37,887 bases of DNA, taken from NCBI GenBank assembly GCA_003022385.1, contig PYGV01000018.1, positions 1 through 37,887 of the forward strand, in the 5' to 3' direction. Positions 3,589 through 23,415 of this stretch are shown piece after piece. A model generated the notes under the pieces. It did no database searches. It was not told the DNA's origin and saw nothing but the letters and a program-made list of their open reading frames with translations. How positions within the stretch are numbered: the first letter of the stretch is position 1; every line of letters begins with the position of its first letter. This DNA comes from a filamentous cyanobacterium CCP3. GTDB taxonomy: Bacteria > Cyanobacteriota > Cyanobacteriia > Phormidesmidales > Phormidesmidaceae. Position numbers and translations under genes: made by a program.

Positions 3589-4893
3589 ATGCCTGTGGTT
3601 TGGCCAGCAGGTGTCATGGGTTATCGACGGTTTTTAACGGGGCTGGGCCTGGGCTTGGTGCTCAGCGTCTGCATCGCCTGCTCCCAGCGGGTGCTAACGT
3701 CTGCACCAGCGGTACCACCTCCGCCCGATGCCGCTGGGGAAATTTCCCCTGAGCAAGCCCGCGAGGGTGCGCCTGTAGCCGCAGAGTCATCTCCTGCCGC
3801 CCCAGAACTCTCTGCCATCGCCCAGGCGTGGATCGCCAATGCCCCAGGCGGTATGGCCACCCCACCCCGCAAAGACGTGCGGCTGGTGGCGATCAGCGAT
3901 CTCAACAGCGCCTACGGCTCGACCGATTATGACCCCGAGGTCGATAAGGCGATCGCGCTGCTGCCTTACTGGCAGCCCGATCTGGTGGTGTGCAGCGGCG
4001 ATATGGTGGCGGGGCAAAACCCGGCCCTCACGCCCGAGCAAATTACCGCCATGTGGCGGGCCTTTGACGACCACGTCGCCGCCCCCCTGCGCCAGCAAAA
4101 CCTGCCCTTTGGCTTCACCATTGGCAACCACGACGCCTCCAGCGCTCGGGGCGTACACGATCAGTTCTTGTTTCAGCAGGAGCGCGACCTGGCCTCGACC
4201 TACTGGCAAAACCCGGCCCACAGCCCTGGGGTAACGTTTATCGATCGCACCGATTTTCCTTATTTCTACACCTTTGAGCAGCAGGGCATCTTCTTTATGG
4301 CCTGGGATGGCTCATCGAGCCAGATCCCGGCAGACAAGCTGGCCTGGGTCGAGCAGTCGCTGGCCAGCGACGTGGCTCAGCAGGCTAAAGCCCGTATTTT
4401 GCTTAGCCACCTGCCCCTCTACGGGGTGGCAGTAGGGCGCGACGAACCGGGCGAGGTGATGGCGAATGCCGATCAGCTGCGCACCATGCTAGAGCGCTAC
4501 AACGTCCACACCTACATCAGTGGCCACCACCACGCCTACTACCCCGGCCACCGCGGTCAGCTACAGCTGCTGCACACGGGCATTTTGGGTTCTGGCCCCC
4601 GCCCGCTCATCGACAGCCGCCTGCCCCCCTGGAAAGTGATCACGGTGATCGACGTTGACTTCAACGATCCCGACCTGACTACCTACACGACCTACGACAT
4701 GCAGACCCTGCGCACGATTGAGTACGAGGAATTACCTCGGTTCTTAGCGGGTCACAACGGCATTGTGCTGCGCCGAGACATCAGCTACGACGAATTGGCT
4801 CCCGACGAACAATCTTTTTGCGAACAGCGCCTGGGGAAAGCCCTCTGCGCCGGAAATTTACCCTTCCCTAGGCCCAGAACCTATACCGCTTAG
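3589..4893 (+). CDS. calcineurin-like metallophosphoesterase, probable lipoprotein
   Basis: The 434-residue product starts at an ATG preceded by GAGG at a good distance; an internal ATG at 3616 is the alternative and would put the signal sequence right at the N-terminus. A hydrophobic stretch ends in SVCIAC followed by a Pro/Ala/Glu-rich linker, which looks like a lipoprotein signal with an imperfect lipobox. The catalytic domain (about 95-400) carries the metallophosphoesterase blocks: SDLN (first metal motif, Asn in place of the usual DxH His), SGDMV, GNHD, SHLPLYG and GHHHAYY. A cell-surface or periplasmic phosphodiesterase or phosphatase is the likely role; the substrate is unknown. It stands alone on the plus strand. 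Confidence 0.82.
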   Translation: MPVVWPAGVMGYRRFLTGLGLGLVLSVCIACSQRVLTSAPAVPPPPDAAGEISPEQAREGAPVAAESSPAAPELSAIAQAWIANAPGGMATPPRKDVRLVAISDLNSAYGSTDYDPEVDKAIALLPYWQPDLVVCSGDMVAGQNPALTPEQITAMWRAFDDHVAAPLRQQNLPFGFTIGNHDASSARGVHDQFLFQQERDLASTYWQNPAHSPGVTFIDRTDFPYFYTFEQQGIFFMAWDGSSSQIPADKLAWVEQSLASDVAQQAKARILLSHLPLYGVAVGRDEPGEVMANADQLRTMLERYNVHTYISGHHHAYYPGHRGQLQLLHTGILGSGPRPLIDSRLPPWKVITVIDVDFNDPDLTTYTTYDMQTLRTIEYEELPRFLAGHNGIVLRRDISYDELAPDEQSFCEQRLGKALCAGNLPFPRPRTYTA

Positions 4894-5209
4894 CGGCTGA
4901 AGTCTACAGGGACTACAGTTTACAACCAATCCGTGGCGTGGTCAGTCGGGCAGCGGTCAGCGAGCCAAGTTTTGTGCTAAGGTAATTTCTATAAATGGGC
5001 AGTTATGCCCAAGCTTTGCTGTCTGTATATCCGTATGCCGACAGTTTTTTAATGACTGTGCTGCTATGCAGCCTTAACGACTTTGCCTGGAACAATGGGA
5101 GGTGGCTCAAGCGTTCCAGGGCAACCCAGCCCAATTTTCGCGGGTCCAGCGGCCTGCCAGTAGAATTGGTTCACTAGTTCATACCCAAGGAGTAAAGAAG
5201 CAATTTCGT
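4894..5209 (+). promoter_or_regulatory. long 5' leader of rpsU
   Basis: These 316 bp between the metallophosphoesterase and rpsU hold no convincing gene. A short inverted repeat, GGGCA/TGCCC, lies near 4996-5009. AAGGAG (5187-5192) is a perfect anti-Shine-Dalgarno match but sits 17 nt from the ATG, so the weaker AAGAAG at 5195-5200 may be used instead. A long leader before a ribosomal protein gene would allow translational control, but no specific element was recognised. Confidence 0.35.
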
Positions 5210-5386
5210 ATGACTCAAGTCGTTGTAGGTGAAAACGAGGGCATTGAATCGGCCCTGCGCCGCTTTAAGCGGCAGGTTTCCAAGGCAGGAATTTTTTCAG
5301 AAGTAAAGCGTCGTCGCCACTTCGAGACGCCCCAGGAAAAGCGCAAGCGCAAAGCCGTCGCCCGACGCAAGAAGCGCTACCGTTAA
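5210..5386 (+). CDS. rpsU: 30S ribosomal protein S21
   Basis: The 58-residue product [20 protein letters not shown]... ends in the basic tail typical of S21 ([13 protein letters not shown]) and matches the family over its whole length. S21 is a small-subunit protein near the anti-Shine-Dalgarno region that helps base pairing with mRNA during initiation. The open frame extends upstream to 5102, but the ATG at 5210 is chosen because homologues begin there and AAGGAG lies just upstream. A strong intrinsic terminator follows, so this is probably a single-gene transcript. Confidence 0.96.
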
Positions 5387-5439
5387 GCGGTCTTTAAGCA
5401 GCGTCTAGGCGCTGCCGCCGTGGCAATTGTTTTGTAACT

Positions 5440-5475
5440 AAGGGATGCCGTTCATCGGTATCCCTTTTGTTTTAG
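5440..5475 (+). terminator. Rho-independent terminator of rpsU
   Basis: An 11-bp stem (AAGGGATGCCG paired with CGGTATCCCTT, one G-U) closes a TTCAT loop and is followed at once by TTTTGTTTT. It sits 53 nt after the rpsU stop. The rest of the spacer to 5603 contains a short repeat-like stretch (GACTGCGCTCAGTC, near 5523-5536) and nothing else recognised. Confidence 0.9.
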
Positions 5476-5603
5476 GGCGTTTGGAGCTCGCAGGAAAATA
5501 AGGCACCCGCTAATCGGACTTCGACTGCGCTCAGTCTTCGATCCCCGGAGGATTGGCGCGGTCGAAACCTGTTCGCCTGGTACACCATCAGCTCGCCGCT
5601 CCC

Positions 5604-7706
5604 TTATTCCTCCAGGTTGGCGTTCACCAGGGTGAGCAGCGGGCCAATTTGCTCCTGACCGCTAACGGCCAGATCGCTGTGGCACAGCACCACCCGTTCG
5701 GTGACCCGACCCAATAAATCACGCAAAATTCGCTCTGGGCGATCGCGATGCAGCACTTCCAAATCTTCGGTACGCCAGGGCCGCCCCCTGTAGGTGCTCA
5801 AAAATATGGGGTAGCCAAACAGCAAATCCTCGGTACCGCCCAGCCAGCGAGGGGATCCGGCGTCAATCCAAAAGTGCCAGCGGTGGCGCAGGCGCTGCAG
5901 CCGGTACTGGTAAACGGTGGCGATCGTGATTACCCGCTGGCTGGGGTCAGCCGACTCGACTGGGTAGGGGTCAGCGGTGACGGTGCCCTGGCGCAGCAGC
6001 AGAATGAACCGTTCCAGGGCCGGTTTGAGCAGGTGGGCCGGGGTTGTTCCCAGCGTCGGCGGAATCTGGCGCAGCCGATCTTCGATCGCCCAGTACTGCT
6101 GGGCCGTTTCCATTAGCTCCCGCAGGGCAGACAGCTGGTCGGGGGGCAGGTGGCTACCGCCCCAGTAAAAGGTCTGAATGGCCCGATCGAGCACGCTGAC
6201 CACCCCCAGGGTGAGACGGCGCTGGCGCTGCTGGCGCTGCTGCTCAATCCACTGGCGCAGGCGATTGTAGGCCTCGGTGGCTTTGTAGCCGAGCCGATCC
6301 CAGCGATCGAAGCGCTCGACGGGCAGCAGCTCGGGCTGCTCTAGACTGGGCTCAAAGCAGTGGTCGACCAGCAGCTCGGCCCGCACCGGGTCAATTTGAA
6401 CCGACTCAAACCAGGGGCCAACCTCTGGAGCCTGGGGAATTTGGCTCAGCACCAGCAGCATTTCGGCCACGGTTTCGGCGTCGGCCAGCCGCCCCAGCCC
6501 TGGGTAAACAAAGCTCAGCAGCGTGAGTAAGGCCCGCACCAGCGGCGAGTGAATCACGGGGCGCTGGTCGTTGAGCGAAGCCACGGGCACCCCGCGATTG
6601 GTCAAAATTTCGGCCAGGGTGTAGCGGGCGATCGCATCCAGCCCTGGCCCAATGATCGCCACCTCGTGGGGGGCCGCCTGCCCGGTCCTGACCACCTCAA
6701 CCACCCGCTCCGCCGTCTGCCGCAGCAGTTCGCCCCGCGACACCGTTTGCAGAGTTTGAAAACAGGCCAAAGGTTCTGGCAGGGTCATTGGGTCCATCAC
6801 CCACTGCACCACCTGGTCGCCCCAGCGATAGCCCAGGGAGTCGGCGGCGGGGTCGGGCCGCTCGATCACCTGACACTGCGGTTTGAGCAGCTGCTCTAGG
6901 CTGTCGGGGTTGGCTCCCATGCCCAGTCGGCCTTTGCCGTAGCGGTTCCAGGTCAGCGCCACGGGTCGAGCCCGATCGATAAACACCTGAATCCATTGAG
7001 CTGCGATCGCCGGGTACTCATCCAGGTCATCGACAAAAACGCCGCCGTAGCGGGCTAGCAGCTTCTCCTGGTAAAGCGGGTGGGGCAACAGGTGTCGCCA
7101 GTACAGCTCGGTCATCACACCGTAGGTGAGCAGGCTGCGCGCCAGGCACCAGTCGCGCCAGTCTACCACCGCTTCACCGATGGCCCGCCACACGGTCTCT
7201 GGGGCATAGCCCGAGGGAATACCCTCAGGCAGCAGTACCGGCAAATCTTCAGCCGGGATGCCTGCCGCCGCCGCCATCTGCAAAAAATCGAGCGATCGCC
7301 GCACCGTTTGAGCCTCGCGCCAGCCCTCAACGGTCATGGTGCCGTCGAGCAGTTTCTCCTGCCACAGCCCGGTGGTCAGCTCCTGCTCATTTTCAGGTCG
7401 CAGCCGCAGCGGAAACTGCGGCAGTAGCCCCAGACTGTTGACCAGCAGCGGCCAAAACAGCGTCACCTCATCTTGAATAAATCCGTTGGGGGTGGTGGTG
7501 ACTACGGCCACCTCAGGGGCGACATCGGCCAGCCGCGCCGCCAGCCGCAGGCGGTTGTCGCCATTGGCCGCAAACATTAAAAAGCTCTGCCCCAGCTCTA
7601 GAGTCGGCCCCAGGTCGCCGCTAGCGGCGGCGGCAACTTGATCGAGCAGCCAGGCGGTCTTGCCGCTGCCCGTTGCCCCCTCAAGCCACTGGGGCCAATC
7701 TGCCAT
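5604..7706 (-). CDS. P-loop ATPase, AddB/UvrD-like, of a cyanobacterial family
   Basis: A 700-residue protein with a Walker A motif, GATGSGKT, almost at its N-terminus (about residues 10-17) and a Walker B-like VFVDDLDEYPAI around residue 225. The overall plan, an N-terminal P-loop then a long helical middle and a C-terminal segment with SDLAVSGQEQIGPLL, recalls superfamily-1 helicase subunits such as AddB and inactive UvrD relatives. Homologues that I recall in cyanobacteria carry the vague label recombinase family protein. No PD-(D/E)XK nuclease or FeS cysteine cluster is visible, so it is probably not an active AddB nuclease. DNA recombination or repair is an inference from fold only. It is divergent from the histidine kinase at 7984, with 277 bp between. 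Confidence 0.6.
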   Translation of the reverse strand: MADWPQWLEGATGSGKTAWLLDQVAAAASGDLGPTLELGQSFLMFAANGDNRLRLAARLADVAPEVAVVTTTPNGFIQDEVTLFWPLLVNSLGLLPQFPLRLRPENEQELTTGLWQEKLLDGTMTVEGWREAQTVRRSLDFLQMAAAAGIPAEDLPVLLPEGIPSGYAPETVWRAIGEAVVDWRDWCLARSLLTYGVMTELYWRHLLPHPLYQEKLLARYGGVFVDDLDEYPAIAAQWIQVFIDRARPVALTWNRYGKGRLGMGANPDSLEQLLKPQCQVIERPDPAADSLGYRWGDQVVQWVMDPMTLPEPLACFQTLQTVSRGELLRQTAERVVEVVRTGQAAPHEVAIIGPGLDAIARYTLAEILTNRGVPVASLNDQRPVIHSPLVRALLTLLSFVYPGLGRLADAETVAEMLLVLSQIPQAPEVGPWFESVQIDPVRAELLVDHCFEPSLEQPELLPVERFDRWDRLGYKATEAYNRLRQWIEQQRQQRQRRLTLGVVSVLDRAIQTFYWGGSHLPPDQLSALRELMETAQQYWAIEDRLRQIPPTLGTTPAHLLKPALERFILLLRQGTVTADPYPVESADPSQRVITIATVYQYRLQRLRHRWHFWIDAGSPRWLGGTEDLLFGYPIFLSTYRGRPWRTEDLEVLHRDRPERILRDLLGRVTERVVLCHSDLAVSGQEQIGPLLTLVNANLEE

Positions 7707-14800: not shown

Positions 14801-14839
14801 GAGACGTCAAGGGAAGGTTGAGTGCAAGACGCTGCCCGG

Positions 14840-15199
14840 CTAGGCGCTGCGGCGGCGGGGGCACTTGTACTCAGACTTTTTCTTGTAGCCGATCGCCTGG
14901 GCGGCGTTGCTGTCGGGGCCAAACTGCGCCCGCACGGCTTCTTTCATGCCCAAAATGGAGTTGTGAAACTCCCACTCGGCCTGGCGGGCGGCGTCGGATG
15001 CGGCTTTGAGCATGGCCTGTAGCTCGGTTTCTTTTTGCTGCATAACCTGCATTGTTTCGAGACTGGCTCGCAGCTTTTCGGGGGAAGCGTCGGTACGAAC
15101 AGGAAGATAGCCCTCGACGGTGCCAAGACCGTTGAGAGAATCAACGTCTGCCCCGAGGGTTTTAACGGGCAGACGTCGGGCCATTGTGATCACGGGCAT
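14840..15199 (-). CDS. conserved hypothetical protein, 119 residues
   Basis: The ATG at 15199 is preceded by AGAGG at 10 nt. The product has an N-terminal segment MPVITMARRLPVKTLGADVD, a long central helix rich in Gln/Glu/Ala with coiled-coil character (about 40-80), and a basic C-terminus containing KKKSEYK. I recall similar short proteins in cyanobacteria and other bacteria but no function. The charged, helical nature and basic tail could suit nucleic-acid binding, but that is speculation. It has its own terminator and is probably monocistronic. Confidence 0.75.
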   Translation of the reverse strand: MPVITMARRLPVKTLGADVDSLNGLGTVEGYLPVRTDASPEKLRASLETMQVMQQKETELQAMLKAASDAARQAEWEFHNSILGMKEAVRAQFGPDSNAAQAIGYKKKSEYKCPRRRSA

Positions 15200-15369
15200 G
15201 GTAGGTACACCTCTGTTGGTGAATGGTTAATGAGTTGTTGAAATACGCGAACCAGTAGCCTGCCTGAATGAATTTCAGGAGCGATCGCAGAGGGTTGGGG
15301 GAGTGACGAATGGGTTCAGGTCAGGCAGCAGAGACGACGGTTTGGGGGTGAAGCGTCTGGTTGTCTCGT

Positions 15370-15555
15370 CTATTGCCAAGATTGCCCGGTGCAAAAAGGC
15401 GATCGCGGCCTGAGTTGAAAAGATTGCGACCTGAAATCAATAGTTTGAATGAAGCCTGGATGAATGTTGCGCTGGCCTGGGCTTGCTGCTGAGGCGGCAG
15501 GCTTGATGGGAGGGCTGCATAATTGATAAACAGCAATGACAGCGATGTTGTGCAT
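15370..15555 (-). CDS. possible small ORF with strong ribosome site
   Basis: The 61-residue frame begins at an ATG with a perfect AGGAGG nine nt upstream (minus strand, 15565-15570). The predicted product resembles nothing I know. A second minus-strand frame (15321-15536) overlaps it and looks about equally protein-like, but has only a TTG start. Either the upper frame is a real small gene, or this is an old gene broken by a frameshift. The remaining spacer 15200-15369 shows nothing recognisable. Confidence 0.25.
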   Translation of the reverse strand: MHNIAVIAVYQLCSPPIKPAASAASPGQRNIHPGFIQTIDFRSQSFQLRPRSPFCTGQSWQ

Positions 15556-15603
15556 TGAGCAGATCCTCCTGTGGGGGCTGCATATTCGAGATCACTCTAT
15601 GAC

Positions 15604-15834
15604 AGCAAAGGATTCTATAGATGCAGGAAAGAATTGAGCTGTTGCAGCGACGTTGTTGGGGCGCGATCGAAAGGATGCAGCCCTCGCACTAAAGGATGCA
15701 GCTCTGACACTAAAGGATTGCGCTGCTGCACTAAAGGATGCAGCCCTCGCACTAAAGGATGCAGCCCTGACACTAAAGGATTGCGCTACTGCACCAAAGG
15801 ATGCGGCCCTGACACTAAGGTAGTGGGGTGCTGC
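15604..15834. repeat. 21-bp tandem repeat array, about 11 units
   Basis: Units of exactly 21 bp run from 15604, of the type ACTAAAGGATGCAGCCCTCGC. The central units (15667-15813) are well conserved, the outer ones degenerate. Units alternate in a 63-bp higher-order pattern: 15667-15729 and 15730-15792 are near copies of each other. Because 21 is a multiple of three, several frames stay open across the array; one plus-strand frame, ending at TAG 15821, reads as heptads ALKDAAL/TLKDCAA. No start codon with a ribosome site was found for any of them. Confidence 0.85.
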
Positions 15835-15915
15835 AATAGGCGATCGCTCCAGAGCAGAGGAAGGTGGTTAGCCTGCTACGGCGCTACATTGTCCTGACGC
15901 TCCAGCGTCGAGACG

Positions 15916-16001
15916 CATCCCAGACGATCCAGCGTCATCAATGCCGGGGCGTAGGAGCGCCAAGGGCGGCGTTCCCACGCCCCGGCATGGGAACGATGCT
16001 G
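15916..16001 (+). repeat. REP-like palindromic element, left copy
   Basis: It contains a perfect 12-bp stem, ATGCCGGGGCGT with ACGCCCCGGCAT (15940-15987), around the shared core GCGCCAAGGGCGGCGTTCCC, and ends GGGAACGATGCTG. A related copy lies in the same orientation at 21331-21415, on the other side of the three-gene operon. A smaller dyad, GACGCT/AGCGTC, precedes it at 15895-15908. Confidence 0.7.
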
Positions 16002-16140
16002 CAAAAACTGAAAATTTGATTGCCCGGTGCCCATTGGCCATTAACCGAGGAAGGATTTGATAACATAGTCAGCCATAGGCTAGAACAAGATTCCATTTCT
16101 GCGTTCTTGTAGCTTTTGTAAGGAGAGTTTTAGGAGACGG

Positions 16141-16187
16141 GAACCCTCATAAGCTAGAGATATGAGAACCCTAACCAGGGAACTCTG
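16141..16187 (+). promoter_or_regulatory. operator or translation-control hairpin before the winged-helix gene
   Basis: GAG-aa-CCCT (16164-16172) pairs with AGGG-aa-CTC (16177-16185) around AACC. The 3' arm contains AGGG, the only Shine-Dalgarno-like sequence for the TTG start at 16188, so folding would hide it. An upstream half-dyad, CCCTCAT...ATGAG (16146-16166), overlaps. The spacer from 16002 contains AAGGAG and AGGAG runs (16120-16136) too far from the start to serve it. Confidence 0.4.
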
Positions 16188-17117
16188 TTGACAGAGCAAA
16201 TTTCAACGCTACGTCTGAGCCGATTATTGTTGCGTTTTATTAAAACTACTCCTATGGAGCTGTCCCCGCTAGAACTAAAGTTTTTGTTGCGATTGTTGGA
16301 GCATTCTCCTGACTATCGCACCCAAATTGGCAAAATTAAACTGGAATCTAAAACTCCGACATCAGAGCGCAATCGTATCTGTAAGAGTCTCTGTAGCAGA
16401 GGGTTGGTCGAGTATACCGATGAAGTTCAGCGGTATCAGACAACGGCTGCTGGAAAAACATTGTTAAAGTCGGATGCCGATACGTTGCCTGTATCCGTTT
16501 CCCCAAATGAGTTAGCGCTACTAAAAGTGGCGACAACCAAAGCTGTCACGCCAGGTACAGCTAACAAAGTTCCAGCAGGCGATCGCCAACAATTGCTTAA
16601 TCAGCTTAAAGAGCGAGGGCTGATTACCGTTAGTAAGAGTCAAATTAAGGATGTGTGGTTGACGTCACAGGGTATCCATTATCTGTTGAATGATTGTACT
16701 CCCACCAGCTCTAGTGCCAAGCTGTCATTCTCAATGTTGGGTAACTATCTCACCTTTCTACGCCACTCCTTGGGGCAAGAGAGTGTAGCAGTCGGTACTT
16801 CCCAAGAATTATCTAATACGCAATCAGCATCTACAAAGGATTCTAACCTGACACCAGATGCAGTTCTAGATGTTATCCGCCAGCTCGATCAGCAGCTAGA
16901 TACCGACAACTTCTTACCCATTTTTCATCTCCGGCAGAAGCTACAGCCCCCCCTCAGCAGGGAAGCTTTAGATCGGGTGCTGTACGATCTACAGAGCCGA
17001 GACTTGATTGAACTTAGCACCTTGCAAGATGTATCTAACTACAGCGAGGCAGAGGTTGCTGCTGGGATTCCTCAAAATACGGGTGGAGCTTGGTTTTACA
17101 TCAGCTTTAACGAGTGA
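16188..17117 (+). CDS. multi-winged-helix protein, first gene of the nuclease/FtsK operon
   Basis: The start is set at a TTG because a TAG lies in frame at 16155 and there is no ATG before residue 23; AGGG is 7 nt upstream. The 309-residue product has three stretches with the winged-helix rhythm of helix, recognition helix, GLV/GLI turn and two strands: about 24-92 (CSRGLVEYTDE... TTAAGKTLL), 103-170 (LKERGLITVS... LTSQGIHYLL) and 226-305 (LQSRDLIELS... AWFYISF). No catalytic motif is visible. Such a protein could be the operon's repressor or a DNA- or partner-binding subunit of the complex. It ends 24 bp before the ATPase gene. Base use is visibly richer in A+T than in the flanking core genes. 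I know no named family for it. Confidence 0.7.
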   Translation: MTEQISTLRLSRLLLRFIKTTPMELSPLELKFLLRLLEHSPDYRTQIGKIKLESKTPTSERNRICKSLCSRGLVEYTDEVQRYQTTAAGKTLLKSDADTLPVSVSPNELALLKVATTKAVTPGTANKVPAGDRQQLLNQLKERGLITVSKSQIKDVWLTSQGIHYLLNDCTPTSSSAKLSFSMLGNYLTFLRHSLGQESVAVGTSQELSNTQSASTKDSNLTPDAVLDVIRQLDQQLDTDNFLPIFHLRQKLQPPLSREALDRVLYDLQSRDLIELSTLQDVSNYSEAEVAAGIPQNTGGAWFYISFNE

Positions 17118-17141
17118 AATTTACAGAGACGGTAAAGACTA

Positions 17142-19169
17142 GTGACTTCGCTCCAACATCTCATCCAACACAATCTTAATCCTTTTGATCAGAATACATT
17201 CAGGCCAGGGAACTTCTGGCAAGAGAATCCTGATATCGCTTTAGAAGTCGAGAGTATACATGCGCCAATCCTGAAAATAATTGACCAAGTAGTCACCCAG
17301 ATCGGGAAGGATCATGCAACCCGTACCTTCTTGCTCACCGGGGATAGAGGTGCGGGTAAAAGCTATTTACTGGGGCGACTAAAGCGGCAGCTCAACAATA
17401 AGGCTTTTTTTGCCTATATTGGCCCGTGGCCTGATAGTAGTTATCTCTGGCGACACACGCTACGCAATACCATCGATAGCCTGATTTACGTACCTGAGGG
17501 AGAATCGGAATCGCAGCTTTTGCTTTGGCTCAAGGGGCTAGCTAGCCTTCAAAAGCAGAGCTTTGCTAAATGGGTACTTGGGGAGCGGGGAAACTTTATC
17601 CAAAACTTACAGGCCAGTCATCCAGTAGGTATTTATAACGGAAAAGAGTTCTTTGGCGTACTTTACGACTTAGCAACCAACCCCGATTTGCGAACCTTAG
17701 CCTATGCCTGGCTGAAGGGCGATAATTTAGATAAAGATGACCTTAAAGCCCTACGGGTCAAACAGCCGATCGATTCTGAGGATGCTGCCCAAAAGCTATT
17801 GAATAACATTGGCCGCATTGCTAACTCCACACAGCCGATTGTGCTTTGTTTTGACAATCTGGATAGCATTCCTCAATCATCGAATGGCAAACCAGACCTA
17901 CAAAGTCTTTTTAACCTGAACTCTACTATTCACAACGAGAAGTTACGCAATTTTTTGGTTCTTATCAGCCTTGTTAATGGTACCTGGCGAGAAAGTCATA
18001 AGGTCATTCAACCGGCGGATTTAGATCGCATTAATCAAACTCTTCAACTTAAACCTATCAACTTGGAGCAAGCGGCAGCCCTCTGGGCAATGCACATGGC
18101 TCCGCTACATAAGCAGGCCAAACCTAAGCCAAACACCACTATTGAGCCTCTTTCTCATGCTTTGTTGGAGCAAAATTTTCCTGGGAAAAGAACCTTTCCC
18201 CGTAATACGTTAGATTTAGGTCGAAAGCTCATTGCTTATTACAAACATCATGGCAAGATGCCAGACATCGAAGCATCTGGTGAAGTTAGTACAACCAAAA
18301 CAAGTTTTGATGAAACACTTGCAACTTCCGGCAAGTCCATCAACAGGTTACCTGCCAACTTCAAGCTGATTTGGGATAAAGAGTTTCAATCAGCCCAACA
18401 GCGGGTGATGCGGATTGGTCAGTTCACCTCGCCTGAGCTGATCTGGCGGCTGCGACAGGTGCTAGAGGCGCTGGAGGTACCTCAGGTCACGACTCAACTG
18501 TTAAAGGGTACCTACGCCTCCTACTCGCTGTCTCATCAGCAGCAACAGATGTATACGGGCGTCGTGTGGAATGAAGATCCCAACATGACAACCTTTTACC
18601 ATGTCATGAATGCTTGTAAGAAGGTAGTGGATAAGAATGCCTGCGATCGCTTATACCTGATCCGAGCCGGAAGCGTAGGGCAGGGAAAGACCAAGGGCAA
18701 TCAAATCTATCGGCAGGTTTTTAACGGCAAAGCCCCCTACGCCCATTTCAAGCCTGATTTGCTTTCGGTACAGTACTTAGAGGCCTATCATCAGTTAGCC
18801 AGTGCGGCTCGTGGTGGGGAACTGGTGGTAGGCAACCAAACGCCCCATCTCAAAGACTTGCAGGCACTGGTACGAGAGGCAAAAGTGCTAGAACAGTGCC
18901 CCTTGTTGAAAGACTTACAGATTGTGTCTGGAGGCACAAAACCACCGCAGCCGGATCAAGCTGTGGCAGACTACATAATTAACCTGATGGCTACCCAGTC
19001 CTTTATTGGGTTGATGGTACTGATTGAGAATACTCAACAGCAATTCTCCAGTTTTGGCGAGCAGGAGATCGATCGGGTGATTCAAACCCTCTGTGAGGAA
19101 AAGCGGCTGCAAGTGTTAGATCCCCACGCCAGTCGTCAAGGGCAGTTAATTTGCTATGTGCCTCAATGA
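17142..19169 (+). CDS. AAA-type P-loop ATPase of the nuclease/FtsK operon
   Basis: The frame opens at a GTG, 24 bp after the preceding gene (675 residues). An N-terminal NPFDQNTFRPGNFW segment leads into Walker A GDRGAGKS (residues 67-74, Lys73); Walker B is VLCFDNLD with Asp238. The layout resembles ORC/STAND-like AAA ATPases such as the large P-loop proteins of some phage-defence systems, but I cannot place it in a named one. The second half (about 400-600) has a distinct conserved-looking domain (LYLIRAGSVGQGKTKGNQIY... ARGGELVVGNQTPH) that I do not recognise, and the last 70 residues look like a winged helix. It probably uses ATP to load or switch the next protein. Its TGA overlaps the ATG of that gene, implying translational coupling and fixed stoichiometry. 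Confidence 0.75.
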   Translation: MTSLQHLIQHNLNPFDQNTFRPGNFWQENPDIALEVESIHAPILKIIDQVVTQIGKDHATRTFLLTGDRGAGKSYLLGRLKRQLNNKAFFAYIGPWPDSSYLWRHTLRNTIDSLIYVPEGESESQLLLWLKGLASLQKQSFAKWVLGERGNFIQNLQASHPVGIYNGKEFFGVLYDLATNPDLRTLAYAWLKGDNLDKDDLKALRVKQPIDSEDAAQKLLNNIGRIANSTQPIVLCFDNLDSIPQSSNGKPDLQSLFNLNSTIHNEKLRNFLVLISLVNGTWRESHKVIQPADLDRINQTLQLKPINLEQAAALWAMHMAPLHKQAKPKPNTTIEPLSHALLEQNFPGKRTFPRNTLDLGRKLIAYYKHHGKMPDIEASGEVSTTKTSFDETLATSGKSINRLPANFKLIWDKEFQSAQQRVMRIGQFTSPELIWRLRQVLEALEVPQVTTQLLKGTYASYSLSHQQQQMYTGVVWNEDPNMTTFYHVMNACKKVVDKNACDRLYLIRAGSVGQGKTKGNQIYRQVFNGKAPYAHFKPDLLSVQYLEAYHQLASAARGGELVVGNQTPHLKDLQALVREAKVLEQCPLLKDLQIVSGGTKPPQPDQAVADYIINLMATQSFIGLMVLIENTQQQFSSFGEQEIDRVIQTLCEEKRLQVLDPHASRQGQLICYVPQ

Positions 19170-21217
19170 CTTCTTCCCTCAGCGTTAGTAAAGTTCGAAT
19201 TGCCTTTGAATGCCCTCGTTTACTCTATCTGGGGCATCACTTTGGCGGCATGACCATGTTTCTGCCCGCTGAGAAAGCATTGGGTATTGGTACTGCCTTT
19301 CACCAGCTCTCAGACCAATTTGTGCGCCAGCTGCGCACAGAGCCAGAGTTCCAACTTATGTTGATGCCTGAGTCTGAATCGTTGGAAGCTGATGCGATCG
19401 CGCAAGCGTTTCAACAGCGGCTCTACCAGTCCATCTTTTTCCCCTATCTACAGCAGGCCATCGCCGAAAAGCCAGAGAAAGCCCAGGCTTTACATCAACT
19501 TTGGCAAGGTCTCAAAGGGCTAATTCAGCGTTGGGCAGAACTGCTGGTGAGTAATCGGCGATTTTGCAAGGCTGATGAGGTGATGCAAAAAACCTTTTTA
19601 GCCCAGGAACTCAGTGTCAAACACGAATTTACCCTGCCCGATGGCAGTCACCAGTTAGTGCAGGGGCGATTTGATAGCTTGGTGTACGACTTTACTCACC
19701 ACCGTCTTTGTGTGGTGGAGTACAAGACCTATCAGTCTCCAGACCCTTCGGCTCAGCTAGCCCAGGTGGCCCTCTACAGCTATATGCTGCGGGAGAAAAT
19801 TGGTGTCCCAATCGATTCTGCCGTCTATAGCGTGCTGCCCGACTGGCAAGAGCAGGTTTATTCCTGGGCGCAGCTAGAAGACACAGTACATCAGCTCATT
19901 CCCCAAAAGCTACTACAAATTCGCGACTGGTTAGCATGGCAGCCAGACCAGGGGGAGCCACCGCCTGCGGCACTACAACTGGCTCTGTGTGACATGTGCC
20001 CCCAACGCAAGAAGTGCCAGACCTATTTTGACTCAAAGTCTACTTCGACATCGGTGACCTTAACAGATCAGAAACCAGCGCGGCCTGATGAGCAGGAAAC
20101 CAGTGAGAGTCCCAAACAATTCACAGCACCTACCCAAACAACGAACCATACAAGCCAGCCTTTAACACCCCCCAACACGCCTTCCTCGGAAGTAGAGACA
20201 ATTGCGAACCATCTTGTGCGTACCCTGGAATCTTTTGGGGTCGGGGTTGATTTACAAGGAATTGCTCTAGCACCTGCCTTTCTGCGGGTGAAATTAAAGC
20301 CTCAGCTAGGGGTAAAAGTGAACTCTATACTGCGGCTTACCGACGATTTGCGGGTGCAGTTGGGGCTAACGGCCCCGCCGATGATTGCTCCCCAGGCTGG
20401 TTACGTTAGCGTCGATTTGCCTCGTCCAGATAGGCAATCGGCTCTGTTTAACCAGTATATTCAGCCCCAGACTTTGCCACCGACGACTCCGGTAAAGATT
20501 GCCATTGGCGTTAACCTGGAAGGTGATCTGGTCGAAGCAGATCTGTCTGATCCTAATACCTGCCATTTTTTGGTGGGTGGCACAACGGGTAGTGGTAAAA
20601 GCGAATTTTTGCGATCGCTCCTGCTTAGCTTACTAAAGCGTCATTCTCCAGAACACCTACAAATCACCCTGGTAGATCCCAAGCGAGTTACCTTTCCCGA
20701 ATTTGAAGATATTCCCTGGCTGCTACAGCCAGTTGTCAAAGATACTGAAGGGGCGATCGCCCTGATGAATTCCTTAATGGATGAAATGGATCAGCGCTAT
20801 TGCCGTTTTGAAAAAAGCCGCTGTGCTGACCTCACTCGCTACAACCAGCAAGCGAATAGTCCCTTGCCTCGAATTGTATGCATATTTGACGAATACGCTG
20901 ACTTCATGGCGGAAAAAGAAAGTCGCTCAGCCATTGAGCAAAGTATTAAACGACTAGGCGCAATGGCTCGTGCCGCCGGTATTCATCTCATCATCGCTAC
21001 CCAACGCCCGGATGCTCAAGTTGTCACGCCATTGATTCGCTCCAACTTGCCGGGTCGAGTAGCGCTAAAAACAGCCAGTGAGGCAGATTCTTCAATTATC
21101 TTGGGGGGTAAGCAGGGAGAAGCTGTCAACCTGCTAGGTAAGGGCGATTTGCTTTATTTAGGCGGCGGTCAATTGTTGCGATTACAGAGCCTTTTTGCTC
21201 CAGAAATAAACCTATAG
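19166..21217 (+). CDS. Cas4-like FeS nuclease fused to FtsK/SpoIIIE DNA translocase
   Basis: The ATG at 19166 overlaps the previous stop (ATGA). Residues 1-290 form a PD-(D/E)XK nuclease of the Cas4/AddB type: Cys16 in FECPRLLYLG, GTAFH, Asp170 in GRFDSLVYD, E185-x-K187 in VVEYKTY, Gln200 in QVALY, then C275-x2-C278-x5-C284. The four Cys positions match the family's iron-sulfur cluster. After a Thr/Pro/Ser-rich linker (about 290-345) comes an FtsK beta-like region (GVKVNSILRLTDDLRVQLG), then the RecA-like motor: GTTGSGKS with Lys478, LVDPKR, Walker B IFDEYAD (Asp575, Glu576), ATQRPDAQVVTPLIRSNLPG and LLGKGDLLYL. The FtsK gamma domain and membrane helices are absent, so this is a soluble motor-nuclease of 683 residues. 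It is expected to move along or remodel duplex DNA and cut it. Confidence 0.9.
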   Translation: MTSSLSVSKVRIAFECPRLLYLGHHFGGMTMFLPAEKALGIGTAFHQLSDQFVRQLRTEPEFQLMLMPESESLEADAIAQAFQQRLYQSIFFPYLQQAIAEKPEKAQALHQLWQGLKGLIQRWAELLVSNRRFCKADEVMQKTFLAQELSVKHEFTLPDGSHQLVQGRFDSLVYDFTHHRLCVVEYKTYQSPDPSAQLAQVALYSYMLREKIGVPIDSAVYSVLPDWQEQVYSWAQLEDTVHQLIPQKLLQIRDWLAWQPDQGEPPPAALQLALCDMCPQRKKCQTYFDSKSTSTSVTLTDQKPARPDEQETSESPKQFTAPTQTTNHTSQPLTPPNTPSSEVETIANHLVRTLESFGVGVDLQGIALAPAFLRVKLKPQLGVKVNSILRLTDDLRVQLGLTAPPMIAPQAGYVSVDLPRPDRQSALFNQYIQPQTLPPTTPVKIAIGVNLEGDLVEADLSDPNTCHFLVGGTTGSGKSEFLRSLLLSLLKRHSPEHLQITLVDPKRVTFPEFEDIPWLLQPVVKDTEGAIALMNSLMDEMDQRYCRFEKSRCADLTRYNQQANSPLPRIVCIFDEYADFMAEKESRSAIEQSIKRLGAMARAAGIHLIIATQRPDAQVVTPLIRSNLPGRVALKTASEADSSIILGGKQGEAVNLLGKGDLLYLGGGQLLRLQSLFAPEINL

Positions 21218-21330
21218 ACAGGCATTTTTTTGTCGTTAGCATAGTTTGGGTAAGGGATCTCTGTAGATAGCAATAGGGTAGAGCATTAAGTAATAGGGTT
21301 AAATTTCACCAAACTGCTCCTTCATCGTCA

Positions 21331-21493: not shown

Positions 21494-21907
21494 CTACATG
21501 CCTCTAAATGGATTGATAATAGTGAGCATATTGTCTACTTTTTGACCGTCTTGCAGGTCTTCGCTGTAGAGGCGATCACACCCCACCTCAAGCGCACTGG
21601 CAATCATCAAACTATCAAAATAGCTATATTGATAACGTTGGGCAATATCTAAAGCTTTGCGAATAGTGCCTAACGAAACAACGGCTAATTGTGACTGCTG
21701 GTTCAATTCGCCAACAACGGCACCAATTTGGGAATAGTCTAACGAGAACTTGCGCCTTAGGGTGTTGACGGTTTCATTCAAAACCTGTGTGCTAATCCAT
21801 GATTGGTCAGCTTGAGCGCATTCACGGGCCGCTTGCTGTTTCTCTGGCTCATCTTGAGAATAACAATAGATGACAACATTAGTATCGAGAAATACCTTAG
21901 CGCTCAT
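21494..21907 (-). CDS. vapC: PIN-domain toxin, VapC-like
   Basis: A 137-residue PIN-domain protein if started at the ATG at 21907; an ATG nine bases upstream is possible. The acidic active site is complete: Asp in FLDTNVVIYCYS, Glu in VLNETVNTL, Asp in YFDSLMIASA and Asp in YSEDLQDG. VapC toxins are metal-dependent ribonucleases, usually cutting tRNA or rRNA to arrest growth. The gene overlaps the end of the upstream small gene by 11 bp, the classical antitoxin-toxin arrangement. It lies about 280 bp from the nuclease/FtsK operon on the opposite strand, in the same A+T-richer region. Confidence 0.88.
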   Translation of the reverse strand: MSAKVFLDTNVVIYCYSQDEPEKQQAARECAQADQSWISTQVLNETVNTLRRKFSLDYSQIGAVVGELNQQSQLAVVSLGTIRKALDIAQRYQYSYFDSLMIASALEVGCDRLYSEDLQDGQKVDNMLTIINPFRGM

Positions 21908-22103
21908 TCGCCTCATCTCGGTTAAATTTAAAGCCTTTAGTTTCTAGAGATATGGCCTGAAACCTGTCAATGTTAGGATTCGCCCGCACAGATAAACTGG
22001 CTGAAGCACGCTGACGAATGAATTCAGCAAACACTAAAACTAAGTTGGCCTCTTCTTCAGGTAGCGTTTTTACGAGTTCATAAATGCTCTCTGCTGTGCT
22101 CAT
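21897..22103 (-). CDS. antitoxin of the VapBC-type pair
   Basis: The ATG at 22103 is preferred (AGGTGAGG just upstream) over a GTG at 22112. The 68-residue product starts MSTAESIYELVKTLPEEEAN, a helical pattern seen in DUF2281-like and other small cyanobacterial antitoxins, and ends in a charged tail (NRDEANER) that could wrap the toxin. No AbrB or ribbon-helix-helix signature is obvious. Its stop overlaps the toxin start, so the assignment rests mainly on position and size. Confidence 0.75.
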   Translation of the reverse strand: MSTAESIYELVKTLPEEEANLVLVFAEFIRQRASASLSVRANPNIDRFQAISLETKGFKFNRDEANER

Positions 22104-22633: not shown

Positions 22634-23242
22634 CTAGCGTGGCATAACATTATCTAGCCGTAGCGCTAGCTGGGGCAACAATGGCGAATTAATTGCTTCA
22701 CCCAGTCGATACTGCTGCTGTTGATAGTCTTCGCCCACCAGCCGACACACCGTAAATGTAGGCTGCTTGGGGCTGCCAATAAACACCCGCCCACCTAAAC
22801 CCCGGTAGTCCACAATCCAATATTCTGGAATGCCAAACAGAGCATACTCTTCTACCTTGCGGGCATAGTCCGTTTCCCAGTTAGTGCTCACTACTTCCAC
22901 CACCAGCTTTACCGAACTGCCCAGGGTAATCACAGGTTCTCGTTCCCACAGCGGCTCATGCACCAGGGCTGGTTCGTCAAGCACCACCACATCCGGGCGG
23001 CGAGCCGTCGCAATATCGGCAAACGGGCGCAGCAAACAGGTGCGCGGAATAATCCACGGATGGCCCTGGCGATCGATTTCAATGCTGAGCTGGCTGGCGA
23101 TTTTTCCGGCAGTTGCTTCGTGCAGGCCGGAAGGTTCCAGGTCTATTAACTCTCCAACGGCCAGTTCGTAGTGGGGGTTATCGCCATAGCGGGTCAAAAA
23201 TTCGTCAACGCCAAGTACCAGCGACGATGAGGTCTGAGTCAT
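22634..23242 (-). CDS. Uma2 family endonuclease (DUF820)
   Basis: The ATG at 23242, with GGGAG upstream, starts a 202-residue protein; the frame is open a little further. The PD-(D/E)XK core of Uma2 is intact: RRPDVVVLD, then LVVEVVS followed by the K-x-EEYALFGIPEYWIVDY block. The family is hugely expanded in cyanobacteria; many members are thought to be nucleases spread by mobile elements, but physiological roles are unknown. The MITE-like repeat lies directly after its stop, so the 3' end may have been shaped by that insertion, though the C-terminus looks complete. Confidence 0.9.
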   Translation of the reverse strand: MTQTSSSLVLGVDEFLTRYGDNPHYELAVGELIDLEPSGLHEATAGKIASQLSIEIDRQGHPWIIPRTCLLRPFADIATARRPDVVVLDEPALVHEPLWEREPVITLGSSVKLVVEVVSTNWETDYARKVEEYALFGIPEYWIVDYRGLGGRVFIGSPKQPTFTVCRLVGEDYQQQQYRLGEAINSPLLPQLALRLDNVMPR

Positions 23243-23415
23243 AGAAAAGACTCCCAGAGCTAAGCAGTCATAGAACAATAGTAAAGAATTCGGGAAAGCT
23301 CGACAGTCATTTTGGCAGGTAGCGATTTTGACTTGATTTGGCGGTCTGAATGCGGTACGTTACTGAGCTATGGCTGTGTGCGAGCAGCCTGAGCTTCCCA
23401 AAAATTTGGTCAAAC

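Follow-up and report, generated by a model that had tools for sequence, protein, structure and literature searches.

The window, that is, the whole stretch of 37,887 nucleotides analysed here, contains a compact operon spanning 5 kb. Three consecutive open reading frames, which we call A, B and C, lie on the + strand (16188/16254-17117, 17142-19169 and 19166-21217). A and B are spaced 24 bp apart, and B and C are joined via an ATGA overlap. The GC content of the operon is 45-51%, compared to ~60% on both flanks. The first-pass annotation had described just such an arrangement: a one-strand trio with this gap and overlap, richer in A+T than its surroundings. It had also reported a toxin-antitoxin pair and a Uma2 gene close by, and a VapC-like PIN gene and a Uma2 gene do lie downstream. 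The features are:

14840..15199, - strand: 119-aa gene upstream of the operon, inside the block collinear with L031 and L032
16254..17117, + strand: gene A, 287-aa winged-helix protein if read from the probable ATG (TTG alternative at 16188)
17142..19169, + strand: gene B, Orc/Cdc6-clade AAA+ ATPase by Pfam, AlphaFold, Foldseek and VIA, 675 aa, GTG start
17340..17363, + strand: Walker A motif of B, GDRGAGKS, from the alignment motif listing
18429..18911, + strand: middle alpha/beta domain of B, candidate inactive REase, between the AAA core and the C-terminal winged helix
18927..19163, + strand: C-terminal winged helix of B (residues 596-674), with cullin winged-helix matches in VIA (Z 11)
19166..21217, + strand: gene C, PD-(D/E)XK nuclease and FtsK translocase, 683 aa, from Pfam and orthologues
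19166..20035, + strand: RecB/Cas4-like nuclease of C with a four-cysteine (Fe-S type) cluster, from PF12705 and conservation
20177..20422, + strand: FtsK-alpha domain of C (PF17854)
20486..21145, + strand: FtsK motor domain of C (PF01580, invariant residues)
21494-21916: VapC-like PIN gene near the operon
22634-23278: Uma2 gene near the operon

The start of gene A had been placed at the TTG at 16188. We consider the ATG at 16254 more likely, because the aligned proteins of relatives begin at the corresponding methionine and in one of them (L032) no start codon lies in frame where the window has the TTG. Protein A gives weak winged-helix matches in Pfam. Its AlphaFold model (31 sequences, mean pLDDT 80) contains three winged-helix units, which match MarR-like winged helices with Z 10-12 across 70-90 residues. 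Units one and two derive from a duplication within the protein (hhalign 97%). A Foldseek search with protein A returned no significant full-length match.

Protein B has AAA_16/KAP-type matches in Pfam, and its AlphaFold model (32 sequences) reaches a pLDDT of 87. The best Foldseek matches of this model are ORC/Cdc6 proteins (E 1e-5, probability 1.00). VIA comparisons give Z 12-13.7 to ORC/Cdc6 and Z 12-13 to TnsC and RdrA. As judged from the model, protein B is an Orc/Cdc6/TnsC-type AAA+ ATPase. Its middle domain is conserved, has a helix-strands-helix-strand order in the model and shows no ExK motif in the alignment. The modelled domain is a likely candidate for an inactive nuclease (REase); hhalign found no sequence link between it and the nuclease of C.

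Protein C matches PF12705 (2e-14), PF17854 (2e-9) and PF01580 (1e-41), and it also gives Cas4-type matches. The nuclease residues are C16, H46, D170, E185, K187, Q200, Y204, C275, C278 and C284. Across 31 sequences the cysteines are conserved in 31/31 and the catalytic residues in 30-31/31. Protein C is thus predicted, on conservation, to carry an active nuclease of Cas4/AddB-like type. In the motor, Walker A (K478/S479), Walker B (D575/E576) and the sensor Q613 are invariant. In most relatives protein C is ~200 residues longer and carries a DEDD 3'-5' exonuclease (PF01612, about 1e-26), the motifs of which are retained in most exonuclease-bearing relatives. The exonuclease is missing from the window copy and from L031, L032, L034 and L070. 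For all three proteins the domains named in the first-pass annotation, namely a winged-helix protein, an AAA ATPase and a nuclease-FtsK fusion, are borne out.

The block collinear with L031 and L032 extends from 14839 to 21224, so the shared part starts upstream of A. It includes the 119-aa gene, which has no Pfam match. Short direct repeats resembling CACTAAAGGATGCAGCCCT lie upstream of the operon at 15660-15820 of the window, and L031 and L032 share part of them. HIP1 sites number 5 within the operon and 52 in the window (~1 per kb compared to 1.4). They had been taken as a sign that the operon circulates among cyanobacteria. The similar density inside and outside the operon points instead to residence in cyanobacteria and says little about transfer.

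To describe the distribution of the operon we consider 386 cyanobacterial genomes. Orthologues or remnants of C are present in 42 of them, B in 47 and both in 40, corresponding to a co-occurrence odds ratio of 963 (uncorrected for relatedness). C occurs without B in only two genomes, and both of these hold shortened C fragments. The order A-B-C is kept at ~35 loci, usually with adjacent genes. Hence the three genes do stay together, a point on which the first-pass annotation had proposed to check its reading. The operon is patchily distributed: it is present in ~11% of the genomes and missing from most cyanobacteria, including members of the same genus. A scan of genome contigs with B yielded close relatives only. 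Universal core genes, the alternative against which that reading had been set, are ruled out by this frequency.

Some loci depart from the usual arrangement. In three genomes (G051, G233 and G101) A-B lies at one locus and C at a distant one. That both parts are retained while unlinked is a good indication that they are functionally connected. At L057 (4663-12611) the exonuclease of C and a dead nuclease are set apart by an inserted Ser/Thr kinase, which has HRD and DFG motifs. H46, D170, K187 and Y204 are gone from this fused nuclease; a stand-alone nuclease gene beside A retains them. Judged by these residues, the dead fused nuclease has been replaced in trans by the intact separate gene. 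A-B-B' is found without C at the locus in L092, L093 and L098, A-B alone in L095 and L096, and tandem operon sets in L068.

More distant or disrupted forms also occur. In G068 a distant operon (L097:7765-12025) encodes a 231-aa winged-helix-like protein, a 655-aa AAA ATPase and a DUF1802 protein; weak B-like matches similar to that of L097 appear in about ten genomes. At L060:7400-14606 a 7,206-bp element interrupts gene C within the codons of its P-loop. This element carries two tyrosine recombinases and a DUF6262 gene (a Tn554-like trio), and it has inverted ends TATCTCTACCA flanked by GGTGGT copies.

One way to read the variants is that A-B forms an exchangeable DNA-sensing platform, which is combined with varied effectors in cyanobacteria. 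The effectors would be the exonuclease-nuclease-FtsK protein, the kinase-bearing C together with a nuclease in trans, a second AAA+ protein (A-B-B') and, in distant relatives, the DUF1802 protein. Long residence beside ParA would then mean a watch over segregation. We regard this platform as a speculative and rather unlikely extension.

The residence beside ParA is a striking property of the relatives. At ~20 loci, about half of the relatives and spanning several families, the gene immediately downstream of the operon encodes ParA, and IleRS often adjoins. Across 17-19 of these loci the divergence of A and C correlates with that of ParA (rho 0.80 and 0.84, respectively), compared to 0.42 for B. 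The shared site and the tracking of ParA by A and C indicate long vertical inheritance with losses. The site and the correlation would also suit a vertically inherited chromosome-maintenance module, acting in segregation, in processing ends or repairing the polyploid chromosomes of cyanobacteria, or in the handling of competence DNA. The combination of FtsK-alpha and FtsK also resembles cellular FtsK. Purifying selection fits maintenance as well: between the window and L031/L032 dN/dS is 0.08-0.18 for all three genes. However, ParA is found in 97 of the 386 genomes, many of which lack the operon, and in many operon-bearing genomes the two are not adjacent. ParA is therefore a neighbour rather than a component, and a role as fourth subunit is ruled out. 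The absence of the operon from most cyanobacteria, even within genera, its decay and truncation at the ParA site and its relocation in the window lineage likewise argue against maintenance. Altogether we consider a maintenance module a doubtful explanation, with a real but small chance of being right.

The decay is seen in genomes where a two-gene HSDR_N-ParA/ParB cassette shares the ParA site with either a shortened C or B on its own. The cassette (L085, L086, L087, L088, L101 and L104) consists of an HSDR_N-ParA fusion of ~457 aa and a ParB_N protein of ~245 aa beside ParA. It holds the site of the operon where C is missing or reduced to its exonuclease domain.

In the window the operon adjoins a peptidase gene. 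In its two closest relatives, L031 and L032 (C 93% identical, A and B ~80%), the operon lies elsewhere and the peptidase region is without it. No clean vacant site corresponding to the window copy could be demonstrated: the left flank is collinear with relatives to 14345, the right flank is not. Between close relatives A and B evolve at 2-3 times the rate of C; neither shows positive selection, their dN/dS to L031/L032 being 0.11-0.18.

Another copy lies on the conjugative plasmid pPSE7367.01. Like the relocated window copy and the tandem sets of L068, it speaks against descent by vertical inheritance alone. The idea of a circulating operon is only partly right, given that about half of the relatives share one conserved ParA site. 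The plasmid copy might also suggest that the operon serves the transfer or replication of mobile elements rather than defence against them, especially as FtsK and Orc-like ATPases occur in such elements according to a comparative study (PMC10853773). Yet no integrase, relaxase or replicase travels with the operon, and its conserved partners are nucleases. Among 50,697 phage records there is no match, and a single viral contig matches only 38 residues of B. Machinery of a mobile element is very unlikely for these reasons. With one plasmid, no phage record and one weak viral-contig match, phage or plasmid cargo is also ruled out as the usual home of the operon.

Defence genes near the loci are few: Septu PtuA/PtuB-like genes in L032 and single matches elsewhere. 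In L032 (Nodosilinea WJT8-NPBG4, 3887-5838) the Septu-like pair, an AAA ATPase and a PtuB-like protein, lies directly upstream of A. In L031 a PIN-like toxin-antitoxin pair occupies the same position.

We propose that the operon restricts DNA independently of modification, as a module of the Orc/CDC6-coupled HerA/FtsK-capture type, with a probability of roughly 60%. That the target is foreign DNA, that the proteins form a complex, the order of the steps and the trigger are all things we infer. The winged helices of A, together with B assembling on DNA as an Orc/Cdc6-like ATPase, would recognise a feature of incoming or replicating foreign DNA. Upon ATP binding or hydrolysis B would load or activate C. 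The FtsK motor of C would pump the duplex through the complex, and the Cas4/AddB-like nuclease would cut it. In most relatives the DEDD exonuclease on C could then degrade the ends, a step that the window copy would do without.

Several observations support restriction of foreign DNA. The kept gene order, the co-occurrence of B and C, their joint retention at distant loci in G051, G233 and G101, the conserved catalytic residues and the nuclease in trans at L057 all agree with it. The patchy distribution, the conjugative-plasmid copy, the relocation in the window and the Septu-like neighbours in L032 do so too. The fold of B resembles those of ORC/Cdc6, TnsC and the defence ATPase RdrA, and the nearest match to the motor of C is SspH, part of the SspFGH system that restricts phage. 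A counter-invader role is independently predicted in the comparative study (PMC10853773). The shared ParA site and the tracking of ParA by A and C count against defence, being atypical of a fast-moving defence system. The few defence neighbours, the purifying selection and the A-B or A-B-B' sets without C in some genomes count against it as well. The first-pass annotation had called the operon a DNA-surveillance module. Its domains, linkage and patchiness are as that description implies, and defence itself is the part that goes beyond them.

How does the operon compare to known systems? SspFGH restricts phage (PMC8092258) by means of three proteins, one with a Walker A motif, one further subunit and one with an FtsK tail. 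It shares with the operon the three-gene plan and a C-terminal FtsK motor on a large protein. The best PADLOC match of C is SspH (2e-68), and the two FtsK domains align with an hhalign probability of 100 and are 33% identical in 324 aligned columns. A divergent SspFGH or DndFGH module, dependent on phosphorothioate marks, would account for this plan and for the related motors. The other two subunits are, however, unrelated in sequence: by hhalign B and SspF share the P-loop only, and A and SspG share nothing. Protein C has 683 aa compared to about 1,800. As the first-pass annotation had stated, there are no dnd or ssp modification genes; none lie beside the operon in the window, and the DndC family is absent from its genome. 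The phosphorothioate-dependent reading is already disfavoured, and we give it hardly any weight. Membership in SspFGH is ruled out, since only the FtsK domains are related by profile comparison; the working principle may be similar by analogy. SspFGH-type genes do exist in four cyanobacterial genomes (L074, L075, L076 and L077), with SspH of 1,770-1,815 aa; genes for a PAPS-reductase-like protein (DndC/SspD) and a cysteine desulfurase lie close to them. These four sets served for the profile comparison.

DndFGH (DptFGH), as described in PMC10853773, likewise combines a triple-winged-helix protein, a P-loop protein and a REase-HerA/FtsK protein. Its P-loop kinase differs from the Orc/Cdc6-like B, and no dnd or dpt model appears among the NCBIfam matches of A, B and C at E up to 1. 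We agree with the earlier assignment that this is neither Wadjet nor BREX: none of the three proteins has a match to SMC, Toprim, PglZ or a methylase in Pfam, PADLOC or NCBIfam. With RADAR RdrA, TnsC and ORC/Cdc6 protein B shares the AAA+ fold only (Z 12-14), and the partners differ. With Cas4, AddB and RecB protein C shares the nuclease motifs and the four-cysteine cluster, but its nuclease is fused to an FtsK motor and has no CRISPR or RecBCD context.

The first-pass annotation could match the operon to no named system. At the level of families this agrees with our searches, in which A and B have no dedicated PADLOC, NCBIfam or Pfam family. The combination itself had already been predicted in silico. 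A comparative-genomics study from 2024 predicts a 'HerA/FtsK capture system' coupled to Orc/CDC6 ATPases, with a counter-invader role (PMC10853773). As described there, this class comprises an Orc/CDC6 AAA+ protein with a C-terminal winged helix, active and inactive nuclease domains and a HerA/FtsK motor. An inactive REase is inserted between the AAA+ core and the C-terminal winged helix. One set carries FtsK-alpha, a subset has a fast-evolving protein with 2-4 winged-helix domains, and in some members a 3'-5' exonuclease is fused to the FtsK protein. In the literature searched we found no experimental test of the class.

The operon resembles this class in its Orc/CDC6 AAA+ protein, its active-type REase, its FtsK-alpha and FtsK domains and its multi-winged-helix protein A. 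The Orc/CDC6 AAA+ protein is B (Foldseek, VIA and Walker motifs). The putative active REase resides in C, with PF12705 at 2e-14 and catalytic residues in 30-31/31, as does the motor with FtsK-alpha (PF01580 and PF17854). Protein A, with three winged-helix units and a rate 2-3 times that of C, corresponds to the fast-evolving protein. The exonuclease on the FtsK protein is absent in the window and present in most relatives. Since the study treats it as optional, its absence is not disqualifying. The kinase-inserted C with a nuclease in trans and the unlinked A-B and C differ from the published account, the available text of which makes no mention of them.

If the proposed function is true, an Orc/Cdc6-type loader and a DNA pump could discriminate foreign from own DNA without a protective DNA mark. 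The natural variants amount to ready-made domain deletions (exonuclease lost, nuclease in trans, genes unlinked, second ATPase replacing the nuclease) and thereby make the class testable. As a compact, well-conserved and tractable example, the operon represents a class of FtsK-based immune machines that is so far a prediction. Because every defining domain that was tested fits the published description, it is best placed as a new member of the already predicted Orc/CDC6-coupled HerA/FtsK capture class.
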